A stretch of 29,820 bases of DNA, taken from IMG/VR virus record IMGVR_UViG_3300034012_002143, positions 1 to 29,820 of that record; one strand, given 5' to 3'. Under the pieces are notes generated by a model. It was not told the origin of the DNA. It ran no database searches and saw only the letters and a list, made by a program, of their open reading frames with translations. Position 1 is the first letter of the stretch; the number at the start of each line of letters is the position of its first letter. The translations under genes were made by a program, and so were the position numbers. Below are positions 1-4,660 of this stretch, piece by piece. This DNA is from a virus.

Positions 1-30
1 GCCCTCGATGCGATAGCTCACAGTCTTCAT
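1..30 (-). CDS. Start of an unknown minus-strand gene (partial)
   Basis: The first ten codons of a minus-strand gene are visible, reading MKTVSYRIEG before the window ends. The start is well supported: on the minus strand an AAGGAG ribosome-binding site lies about eight bases upstream of the ATG. It points the same way as the left operon and may be its distal member, separated from it by the repeat block. Ten residues are too few to assign a family. Confidence 0.55.
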   Translation of the reverse strand, partial: MKTVSYRIEG

Positions 31-105
31 GGGTCGAATCTCCTTGTTCAGTGCGTCAGCGCACTAGGTAAGCCACCGTTGCCGTTGGCCTGCCTGCTGT
101 ACTGA

Positions 106-564
106 CAGCCCTTGCCATGCCATGCCATGCCGAGCCGGGCCAGGCCCTGCCGGGCCGCGCCCTGCCGAGCCGTGCCATGCCGCGCCTCTTCGGTGCAACC
201 GCACCGGGAAGAGCGGCACGCCGCCCAACCCGCTGCATTCGCAGCCCTTGCCTTGCCTTGCCGGGCCTCGCCATGCCTGGCCGCGCCATGCCTCGCCTCT
301 TCGGTGCAACCGCACCGGGAAGAGCGGCACGCCGCCCAACCCGCTGCATTCGCAGCCCTTGCCTTGCCGCGCCTCTCCAAGCCGCGCCTCTCCAAGCCGT
401 GCCTCGCCGAGCCATGCCTTGCCTCGCCACGCTGGTGCAACCGCACCGGGAAGAGCGGCACGCCGCCCAACCCGCTGCATTCGCAGCCCTTGCCTTGCCG
501 TGCCTCGCCGGGCCTTGCCGTGCCGTGCCTGGCCACGCCTTGCCACGCTGGTGCAACCGCACCG
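106..564. repeat. Composite repeat: CCNNG pentamer runs alternating with a conserved hairpin spacer
   Basis: Runs of a degenerate 5-base unit CCNNG (ccttg, ccatg, ccgag, ccggg and so on) occupy about 109-187, 249-300, 359-432 and 490-549. They alternate with a conserved spacer at 192-252, 303-363 and 434-494, with a truncated fourth copy at 550-564. The spacer starts GGTGCAACCGCACC, a 5-bp stem with an AACC loop. In the first two copies the stem extends outward, CTCTTC pairing with GAAGAG. Copies start 111, 131 and 116 bases apart, so the pentamer runs vary while the spacer is constant. A 5-base unit with few stop codons keeps many frames open, so long reading frames here (rich in Ala-Arg-Gly on the minus strand) are probably not genes. 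The rest of 31-608 shows no gene that I can support. Confidence 0.9.
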
Positions 565-608
565 TGCTGCGCCGCAAGCGACGCAGCCCGCTGGAGTCGC
601 GCAACGGC

Positions 609-815
609 TCAACGCCGAGCCTCCTCGACTGACTCCACCCGCCCATCGCGCCACACCAGCCGCGAGCCCATGCGGCTGGGCAGCTGCATCGCATCCATCG
701 CCCCAGGCCGCAGCACCGGGGCCTTGCGGTCCCCGTTGCCCATGGTCACGCGGCGGCTCTGGGTCAGCAGCTCGCGCTGGCCGGGCGCCAGGGCCTGCAG
801 GTCGAAGGTGCTCAT
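609..815 (-). CDS. Hypothetical phage protein, 68 aa, last gene of the packed left operon
   Basis: Small protein beginning MSTFDLQALAPGQRE and ending SVEEARR. The ATG at 813-815 overlaps the TGA of the upstream gene by one base (TGATG), and a GGGAG motif precedes it on the minus strand, so translation is probably coupled. A GTG one codon upstream (816-818) is an alternative start. The middle (GNGDRKAPVLRPGAMDAM) is Met-rich and looks globular; there is no signal peptide or membrane segment. Family not recognised. It is the last gene before the repeat block. Confidence 0.6.
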   Translation of the reverse strand: MSTFDLQALAPGQRELLTQSRRVTMGNGDRKAPVLRPGAMDAMQLPSRMGSRLVWRDGRVESVEEARR

Positions 816-2887: not shown

Positions 2888-3102
2888 GCGAACGCCCTCC
2901 GGTTCAGCAGCAGCTGCTCGGCCTGCAGGCGCTGCAGCTCGCGCTGGCGGGCCTGCTCGAGCCACGCGGCCTCGCTCTCCGCGGCCTTCAGCGTGGGGCA
3001 GTCGGCGTCGATGGCCAGGCTTTCGCGGGTGCCCGGCAGCGGGTGGCACACGTACCAGCGCCCCCCGGCGCCCGGGTGGATGGAGTAGTAGGGGCGGCTC
3101 AC
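2884..3102 (-). CDS. Hypothetical phage protein, 72 aa, GTG start
   Basis: Begins VSRPYYSIHPGAGGRWYVC and ends LLLNRRAFA. I chose the GTG at 3100-3102 because a strong GGAGG lies six bases upstream on the minus strand, and because it overlaps the previous stop as GTGA. An ATG further upstream would run deep into the neighbouring membrane-protein gene. The N-terminal half is aromatic and beta-like. The C-terminal half is one charged helix (KAAESEAAWLEQARQRELQR), likely a short coiled coil. Family not recognised. Confidence 0.75.
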   Translation of the reverse strand: MSRPYYSIHPGAGGRWYVCHPLPGTRESLAIDADCPTLKAAESEAAWLEQARQRELQRLQAEQLLLNRRAFA

Positions 3103-3335
3103 GGCTGGCCTCCAAAGACGACCACCGCCGTGGCCGCAACGATCACGATGCACACCAGTAGGTAGCGCAGCAGCGCGTTGCGGGCCTGCCGGCGAAAGTC
3201 GGGCGCTTCATCAGCGCCGATGTCGTTGGCAGCCTCCGCGGCCTGAATGAAGCATCCAGTACGCAAGCGGCCTTGCTGGTCGGCCCCGGCCGGGATGTAC
3301 GCCGAAGAGCGGCGCGGGATACGCGGGGCGGTCAT
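3099..3335 (-). CDS. Small membrane protein, one C-terminal helix
   Basis: 78 aa beginning MTAPRIPRRSSAYIPAGA. Residues about 1-53 are soluble and Arg-rich. They are followed by a clear hydrophobic segment near the C-terminus (LLRYLLVCIVIVAATAVVVF) ending GGQP. This suggests a tail-anchored inner-membrane protein with most of its mass in the cytoplasm. The start overlaps the upstream stop and its own stop overlaps the next GTG. No family recognised. Small membrane proteins in the early left operon of temperate phages sometimes act in superinfection exclusion; that role is a guess here. Confidence 0.72.
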   Translation of the reverse strand: MTAPRIPRRSSAYIPAGADQQGRLRTGCFIQAAEAANDIGADEAPDFRRQARNALLRYLLVCIVIVAATAVVVFGGQP

Positions 3336-3517
3336 GCCACGCTCCCGGCAAGCGCGTGAACGAGGAGCACGCCGCCGGCAATGCCGATGACGACGGCTAG
3401 GGCGATGCCTCCCAGGCGCTCCATGGTCGGCACCACCGTCTCGGGGGCGCTGACGTAGCCGGCCGTCCAAATGCCGTCCCGCAGCTGGCGCGGGGTGTGC
3501 AGGTGGCTGGGCTTCAT
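3332..3517 (-). CDS. Small single-pass membrane protein, 61 aa
   Basis: Begins MKPSHLHTPRQLRDGIW, then has a polar stretch (VSAPETVVPTMERL) and one hydrophobic helix (GGIALAVVIGIAGGVLLVHA) close to the C-terminus. The ATG at 3515-3517 overlaps the upstream stop (ATGA). It has the same layout as the next gene downstream (a soluble head and a C-terminal helix), so the two may work as a pair in the inner membrane. Family not recognised. Confidence 0.7.
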   Translation of the reverse strand: MKPSHLHTPRQLRDGIWTAGYVSAPETVVPTMERLGGIALAVVIGIAGGVLLVHALAGSVA

Positions 3518-3879
3518 GCGGCCACCCTCAGCAACTCACGCGGCTCGCGCCGCAGGGCGGTGATACCGGCCCCAAAAGTCTTCAGCAGCTCGCGCCGGCC
3601 GCCTTCGCGCGCCACGCGCTCGATGATCGTGGCGACGGTGCCCCGGTTCCACGTCACCACGCGCGGGCCGGTCTTGCCAGATGCGGCAAAGCGCACCGCC
3701 TCAGCGTAAAAGCCTGGGCTGGCGCGCTGCGGGTTGCGGCCGTGCGCGCAGTCGACCGTGAGCATCGGCGCTGCGGTGACAGCCGCGAGGCGGCAAACGC
3801 GGCCCTTCGTGTAGCGGTTCAGCTTGACGCTGGCCAGCACCAGGCCCAGATCGCTGGCGCGGATCGTCTTGTCTTCCAT
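3514..3879 (-). CDS. Hypothetical protein, first gene of the left operon, 121 aa
   Basis: Begins MEDKTIRASDLGLVLASVK and ends ALRREPRELLRVAA. I chose the ATG at 3877-3879. The only longer alternative would start at 3970-3972, inside or upstream of the promoter found at 3937-3965, so it could not be translated from that transcript. A GAGGGG run precedes the chosen start. Basic residues are spread through the protein (KLNRYTKGRVCRLAA, REGGRRELLKTFG), which is consistent with nucleic-acid binding. As first gene under the left promoter it occupies the position of lambda N-type genes. No N-like motif is visible and I do not assign antitermination. Confidence 0.65.
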   Translation of the reverse strand: MEDKTIRASDLGLVLASVKLNRYTKGRVCRLAAVTAAPMLTVDCAHGRNPQRASPGFYAEAVRFAASGKTGPRVVTWNRGTVATIIERVAREGGRRELLKTFGAGITALRREPRELLRVAA

Positions 3880-3936
3880 CTGCACCCCTCGCGCATCCGG
3901 CAGCCCGGCGGGCTGGCTTCGGTGCGATGGGGTCAA

Positions 3937-4135: not shown

Positions 4136-4660
4136 TCAGCCCGCCGCAGTTTCCGGCGGCGGAAGTTGCCGGCGTTCCTTGTGGTCTCGGCGATTGGTCA
4201 CGCCGTCCCATTCCTGGGCGCCGATCAGGCGGCGAAGGCCCTGCAGCACCGCTTCCTTCTCGAACCGCCCCTCGGAAAGGCCGTCGAGTTGCACGCGCAG
4301 GCTGGCCCACTCGTTGGGCGGCAGGACCTCGACCAGCTGCACCAGAGTCTGCAGGAACGTTTCACGGCGCGATGCCTCGCGGTACTCCGGTGGTGCCGGC
4401 TCCTGTGCGATCTGCACCACCTCGGCCATCGGCAGGCCAAGACGCATCGGTCCCTCGCCCGCCGCCAGCCAGAGCGGCCTGACTCCAAGGTACTCGGCGG
4501 CGCGCAGAAGGTTCAAGCCCTCGATGCTTTTGGTCTTCCCGCTGAACCAGTTGGAAACCGACGCATTGCTCACTTTGCAGGCGCGCGTCAGCCCGGCCTG
4601 CGAGCCCCTGGGGTACATGGTGCTCAGAGCAAGGTGAAGGCGATCAGCTAGAGAGGACAT
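4136..4660 (-). CDS. Phage repressor (CI-like), HTH-XRE, without a visible S24 peptidase domain
   Basis: 174 aa. The N-terminus has a five-helix XRE-type fold: SLADRLHLALS, then TRACKVSNASVSNWFSGK with the recognition helix around NASVSNWF, then LNLLRAAEYLGVRPLWLAAG. The LGVRPLWLAAGEGP motif is characteristic of CI-type repressors. The remaining 100 residues are acidic/basic helical sequence (FLQTLVQLVEVLPPNEWASL) with no Ser/Lys S24 autoprotease signature, and the protein is shorter than the 210-240 aa of cleavable CI proteins. It is divergent from the Cro-like gene and presumably keeps both early promoters off. There is no Shine-Dalgarno upstream of the ATG; a TAGGCT -10 at 4667-4672 would start transcription at the ATG itself, suggesting a leaderless message. 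Confidence 0.85.
   Translation of the reverse strand: MSSLADRLHLALSTMYPRGSQAGLTRACKVSNASVSNWFSGKTKSIEGLNLLRAAEYLGVRPLWLAAGEGPMRLGLPMAEVVQIAQEPAPPEYREASRRETFLQTLVQLVEVLPPNEWASLRVQLDGLSEGRFEKEAVLQGLRRLIGAQEWDGVTNRRDHKERRQLPPPETAAG

Follow-up and report, generated by a model that had tools for sequence, protein, structure and literature searches.

The repeats at the left end of the window (the whole stretch of viral DNA analysed here, 29,820 nucleotides) are, with high confidence, a set of four vrRNA genes of a phage-encoded Viral Interference Programmable Repeat (VIPR) system, a type with which competing phages appear to be repressed; the genes lie on the minus strand, directly upstream of a putative vipr gene. 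The block is assigned to a vrRNA array because arrays of this kind are associated with the protein family phrog_4652, listed as of unknown function in PHROGs, and because the profile of this family matches PDB chain 36pp_D, 'SUSP1 Vipr protein' (E value of 3.7e-81). VIPR systems are the subject of a preprint of April 2026 (PMC13142463), and a literature search found no second paper on them among the results listed. According to the text of the preprint, a vrRNA consists of 9–16 YNNGG repeats and an invariable structured 3' tail, the VIPR loci of SUSP1 produce vrRNAs of ~100 nt and the vrRNA copurifies with Vipr, a single-domain RAMP (PMC13142463). DNA is recognised there by the NN dinucleotides with a one-nucleotide skip, repression follows and the targets are competing phages (PMC13142463).

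In the proposed mechanism, each unit would be transcribed on the minus strand as a GGY/NN pentamer run followed by a structured tail. Vipr would coat the pentamer run, the NN dinucleotides would pair with double-stranded DNA in the pattern NNxNNx, with one base skipped, and the Vipr–vrRNA complex would repress transcription of competing phages. The array of the window is presumably expressed and active, with rival phages as its likely targets.

Anatomy and phage context of the array

The features of the left end are listed in Table 1. The sense strand of the block is the minus strand, on which the pentamers read GGCNN. The four runs contain 11, 14, 10 and 15 pentamers, all within the 9–16 tandem YNNGG units of a vrRNA, with GGY fixed and NN variable: 48 of the 50 slots are GGC, and the two GGA slots, which are not GGY, both lie in the second run (guide 2), which also contains an internal 15-nt duplication. 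In exact register and in plus-strand coordinates the GGY runs extend from 544 to 490 (11/11 slots), from 428 to 359 (12/14), from 297 to 248 (10/10) and from 186 to 112 (15/15). Nowhere else in the 29,820-base window, on either strand, does a GGY register run reach six slots. Pure chance was rejected as their source, with a maximum of six slots in 200 first-order (dinucleotide) resampled windows. The runs alternate with a constant module of 56 nt that is present in three identical copies; a fourth copy, nearest the left end, retains the GGGCTG..CAGC hairpin and is divergent afterwards. A GGTGC..GCACC hairpin lies in the leader, 5' of the first run.

Table 1. Features at the left end of the window, in plus-strand coordinates and in order of the minus strand.
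Feature	Position	Strand	Basis
Minus-strand early operon, last gene upstream of the array (68 aa, MSTFDLQ...EEARR); stops just before it	609..815	-	Translation
Leader: stem-loops including GGTGCGGTTGCACC hairpin ahead of guide 1	549..608	-	Fold z -1.2 (whole not better than shuffles); hairpin from sequence
Guide 1: 11 GGC slots, NN = GT AA GT CA AC AC AA CC GA AC AA AA	490..546	-	Register run
vrRNA tail 1: 56 nt; hairpins H1 GGGCTG..CAGC, H2, H3 GGTGC..GCACC	434..489	-	Sequence, fold, H2 covariation
Guide 2: 14 slots (12 GGC, 2 GGA), NN = GT GA AA AT TC GA AC TT GA GC TT GA GC AA AA	359..430	-	Register run
vrRNA tail 2: same sequence as tail 1	303..358	-	Sequence
Guide 3: 10 GGC slots, NN = GA GA AT GC CA AT GA CC AA AA AA	248..299	-	Register run
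vrRNA tail 3: same sequence as tail 1	192..247	-	Sequence
Guide 4: 15 GGC slots, NN = GA GC AT AC TC AG GC CC AG CT CC TC AT AT AT AA	112..188	-	Register run
vrRNA tail 4: H1 kept; other sequences in H2 and H3	50..111	-	Sequence, fold
AAGGAG, probably the ribosome-binding site for the gene that follows	40..45	-	Sequence
First ten codons, MKTVSYRIEG, of a gene cut by the contig end; putative vipr (phrog_4652)	1..30	-	Similarity to Vipr starts

A preliminary description made from the letters of the window had placed a composite block, with pentamer runs alternating with a constant spacer, at 106–564. The block is present at that location and its four register runs lie beyond anything in the 200 resampled windows; its extent is larger, about 50–608, and its sense strand is minus. 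The near-identity reported for the spacers is borne out by the three identical copies, the length being 56 nt rather than about 60 and the fourth copy having diverged, and the proposal that constant and variable parts evolve differently fits the fixed structured module and the variable pentamer run. The 5-base unit does open spurious reading frames, as had been anticipated: frames of 162–440 aa traverse the block, and in mycobacteriophage DRBy19 the annotated CDS gp51 lies inside such a pentamer tract. The last hairpin copies had been said to lose an outer arm, which was taken to suggest decay. As sequence this is correct, CTCTTC preceding the GGTGC hairpin at 191 and 302 and not at 433 and 549. 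The 'outer arm' is, however, made up of the slots with which guides 3 and 4 open (GAAGA GG..), where guides 1 and 2 read AGCGT GG... Because this stretch is guide sequence of the variable run, outside the constant module, the missing arm is no evidence of decay. The advice in the same description to look for small RNA is apt in view of the ~100-nt vrRNAs of SUSP1 (PMC13142463).

The window is a virus record with a minus-strand early operon and a repressor-like gene at 4136–4660; on its plus strand a PHROGs scan identified primase, terminase, portal, head, tail and tape-measure genes. The array is thus carried by a phage, in keeping with the phage or mobile-element carriage of VIPR. For both the head and the terminase genes, distant relatives are present in genomes from the order to which G001 belongs (G001 being the genome with locus L045, a Paraburkholderia record). 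The array has the final complete gene of the early operon on one side and a ten-codon gene remnant at the contig end on the other. The remnant, MKTVSYRIEG, is identical at 8/10 residues to the Vipr start in L050 (MKLVSYRIVG) and at 7/10 to that in L014, from which we infer that it is the start of vipr (phrog_4652), represented in the window by these ten codons only. A search of IMG/VR for the same vipr start gave 0 matches. No vap gene is present in the window; its place would be to the left of the contig end. Searches of the window found no Rfam family and no tRNA gene, and no plasmid relatives of it were found. An integron attC reading was weighed by eye on the GCCCAAC motif and set aside.

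Structure and covariation of the vrRNA tail

The claim that the spacer is centred on a hairpin was confirmed. As RNA, the 56-nt module folds better than shuffled sequences (z of -3.5, 0/200); as DNA the z score is -2.6. To the 130 distinct tails found overall, short ends and near-duplicates being dropped to leave 115, even thinning was applied, and the resulting alignment of 71 tails was selected by the search pattern and this thinning only. In helix H2 all 13/13 pairs change on both sides somewhere among the 71 tails. Over the whole structure 94.6% of cells are paired, compared with 70.8% in shuffles, and the covariation score is 0.618, compared with 0.179 in shuffles and at most 0.147 when the structure is slid. 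Because the 54 tails of alignment A4 (53 of the 71 plus one copy from the window) were hand-chosen, the count was redone on all 71 tails, with the same result. Helix H1 does not vary among the 71 tails, which is uninformative because the H1 hairpin is part of the selection pattern. With three identical copies and the covariation of H2, the tail has the constancy and conserved secondary structure of a vrRNA 3' tail.

In the thermodynamic fold preferred by the window tail (434–489) alone, the H1 and H3 segments, which are mutually complementary, pair as a rod around H2. This suggests an alternative fold or a kissing contact between the two.

Related arrays and the phrog_4652 gene

Related loci were collected by two routes, one by DNA only and one by protein only. 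In the first, a gapped pattern derived from the GGGCTG..CAGC hairpin was searched against IMG/VR and returned 37 stretches, of which 29 are arrays; L033 was counted among these by eye, since an insertion breaks its register. The other eight (L007, L021, L025, L026, L032, L034, L035 and L038) have no pentamers upstream and were rejected as chance matches. Within the DNA fetched, a phrog_4652 gene adjoins 26/29 of the DNA-found arrays. It is absent from the fetched stretches of L008, L019 and L027, L019 sharing a contig with L139, which has the gene. Mycobacteriophages of cluster F, identified through their pentamers, also carry phrog_4652 (gp52 of DRBy19).

In the protein-only search, 561 relatives of phrog_4652 were found in IMG/VR and 80 were kept (L062–L141). 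At least one sense-strand GGY/NN run lies no more than 1.5 kb upstream or 2.5 kb downstream of the gene in 77 of these 80 loci, and none lies within these distances in L116, L127 and L132. Runs are present in every one of the 11 annotated phage records examined (L005 and L052–L061). When all loci, which are partly redundant, are pooled, 116/122 have a run, with 303 runs on the sense strand and one antisense. In the order of G001 the phrog_4652 family is present in 5/399 genomes, with runs beside the gene in four of the five; in G046 the gene and a terminase match to the phage of the window are ~12 kb apart.

Several further features of these loci were observed. The gene following vipr in five phages belongs to phrog_5926 (L057:3091-3528, L052:3082-3570, L053:3042-3497, L054:3082-3645 and L055:2345-2881). 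Owing to this position phrog_5926, of unknown function in PHROGs, is probably the vap1 of the preprint (PMC13142463). The deposited record of Escherichia phage wV8 (L057) marks a repeat 'DR_4' at 2259–2316 and 3652–3709, flanking the vipr–vap pair; it lies within the noncoding DNA in which the vrRNA runs are found. In L005, L059, L060, L061 and L172 the runs nearly abut, with a short GGCAGGC-like frame slip between them and no long tails, and these probably correspond to what the preprint calls 'staggered arrays' (PMC13142463).

The actinophages LittleE, MakoManhole and Trine (L054, L055 and L056) have guide runs that alternate with tRNA-like minihelices, each with an acceptor-like stem, a ~10-nt linker and a T-arm with TTCGANT (L054:2250-2291, 2386-2425, 3706-3747 and 3850-3890; L055:1651-1691, 2984-3024 and 3102-3142; L056 about 3076-3356). 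A perfect minihelix is present at 7/550 TTCGANT sites in the loci then assembled, all seven beside runs in L054 and L055; those of L056 were recognised by eye. We presume that the run-associated minihelices may be processing sites for RNase P or tRNase Z. Similar sequences lie between ordinary genes in Gordonia phage Cafasso, Streptomyces phage Dagobah and Mycobacterium phage Konstantine (L173, L174 and L175); the minihelix may belong to a general class of intergenic elements in actinophages of which VIPR arrays make use. The word tRNA is absent from the main text of the preprint (PMC13142463).

Reading of the guides

The skip rule was assessed with 229 distinct guides from 122 loci and the window, which were searched against the same loci on both strands, with arrays masked and with 0–4 skipped bases between dinucleotides. 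The loci had been collected before PMC13142463 was known and the skip test was run afterwards, so that it forms an independent check of the noncontiguous code. With one skipped base 33 guides have a target, 14 of them at two or fewer mismatches. The corresponding numbers are 4 and 0 for no skipped base, 3 and 0 for two, 18 and 12 for three, and 7 and 0 for four. Five shuffles of the NN order at skip 1 gave 3, 4, 4, 6 and 5 guides, none at two or fewer mismatches, and reversed guides gave three. The skip-3 matches are read as array copies that escaped masking, since the arrays have a period of 5. Codon phase was assigned for 30 of the 33 guides, the rest having no long ORF at the target or being the one window guide; the skipped base falls on codon position 3 (wobble) for 21/30 guides and for 12/14 among the best. 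Several guides match the vipr gene of a rival (L110, L122, L072 and L068 among others) or the gene just after (L091). The preference for a single skipped base agrees with the recognition described in the preprint (PMC13142463).

For the guides of the window itself, one exact nine-NN core per guide was searched against IMG/VR, matching 2, 3, 1 and 2 loci (eight in total). None of the eight matches extends beyond the core and they are therefore read as chance; the best extended matches are 19/24 bases for guide 1, 21/30 for guide 2, 19/22 for guide 3 and 21/32 for guide 4. Guide 4 has 0 matches in the 399 genomes from the order of G001, where guide 2 has two weak matches, with two mismatches each, in homologous copies of one chromosomal gene, at which the flanking NN do not fit. 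No convincing target was thus found for the four guides in IMG/VR or for guides 2 and 4 in the 399 genomes.

Alternative explanations

The preliminary description regarded the block as host-derived and dispersed, which would make it a REP/BIME-like repeat picked up by the phage. A modular hairpin repeat in noncoding DNA is what such an element would look like, but a search for the module pattern in 84,980 genomes gave only 12 contigs, ten of them without pentamers, and the two real arrays (L050 and L051) both lie beside phrog_4652. The sense strand of the arrays is moreover fixed relative to vipr (303:1), and as a general explanation a host repeat is already refuted; for the window it is scarcely credible. 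It is also very improbable that the pentamers and hairpins act only in cis, regulating the downstream gene as, for example, a protein-binding autoregulatory 5' UTR. Runs do lie directly upstream of the gene and on the same strand in the window and in many relatives, but many other loci (L053, L056, L093 and L110, for example) have runs only downstream of the gene pair, and a cis-acting leader is at odds with NN positions from which, under a single skip rule, DNA targets elsewhere can be predicted.

A further possibility, a special case of the VIPR array rather than a competitor to it, so that its probability is not to be added, is that the array is intact in form and no longer used, its guides drifting without targets. 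The searches described above, none of which gave a convincing target for the window guides, would fit such disuse, as would the duplication and the two GGA slots of guide 2. On the other side, GGC is kept in 48/50 slots while the NN vary and three tails are identical, a constancy that suggests maintenance, and the targets may simply be unsequenced. Across 224 guides, moreover, adjacent slots share their NN no more often than expected (180 such pairs at lag 1 against 182), and slippage was accordingly rejected as a source of guide variation. At lag 4 the same guides give 151 pairs against 130 expected, about 2 s.d. Disuse is considered unlikely.

Exchange of tails between phages

The 56-nt tail of the window has an identical counterpart in each of L002, L003 and L004. 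Blastn comparison of the window with eight loci (E value of 1e-4) gave matches only between 106 and 553. L002 and L004 each have several different tails in one array. An identical tail without similarity outside the array, together with the diversity of tails and the mixed arrays, makes it plausible that vrRNA tails move as cassettes between unrelated phages, independently of vipr and of the remaining genome. This is put forward tentatively, as a possibility that we hold to be somewhat less probable than its converse. If it is correct, array units would spread and be rewritten by recombination at the tails. The observations raise a testable question, left open by the main text of the preprint (PMC13142463), namely the route by which guides and tails are swapped and rewritten.

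Comparison with known systems

The case adds a GC-rich phage with four guides to VIPR, and it shows that arrays of the VIPR type are recognisable from raw sequence. The window resembles the published VIPR systems (type II of SUSP1 and the P. fulva prophage; PMC13142463) in its GGY/NN runs of 9–16 units, in the invariable structured 3' tail and in the arrangement of several vrRNAs as an array in a phage, here beside a putative vipr gene. As far as the contig shows, the array of the window lies wholly upstream of the gene, unlike type II, and, vipr being cut by the contig end, the likeness is drawn at the level of the system and not of the type. The vap family phrog_5926 is present in wV8 (Felixounavirus), in LESphi2 and, weakly, in L004, one tail of which equals that of the window; phiSUSP1 has a 39%-identity-class match of the family. 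The tail sequence of the window differs from that of Felix-type phages.

VIPR has been proposed as an ancestor-like relative of CRISPR. The window shares with class 1 CRISPR arrays a constant structured unit that alternates with a variable guide, and a RAMP-family protein is common to both (RAMP assignment from PMC13142463). The guides of the window, however, are pentameric, with a fixed GGC, unequal in length and read with skipped bases. A CRISPR array proper was rejected for the window on the fixed-register GGCNN pentamers of unequal length that make up the variable parts, and no cas gene was found in a PHROGs scan of 19 different window ORFs. TIGR-Tas arrays (PMC12045711) are likewise tandem, phage-borne and associated with RNA-guided DNA recognition. 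By name, their protein family is a different one.
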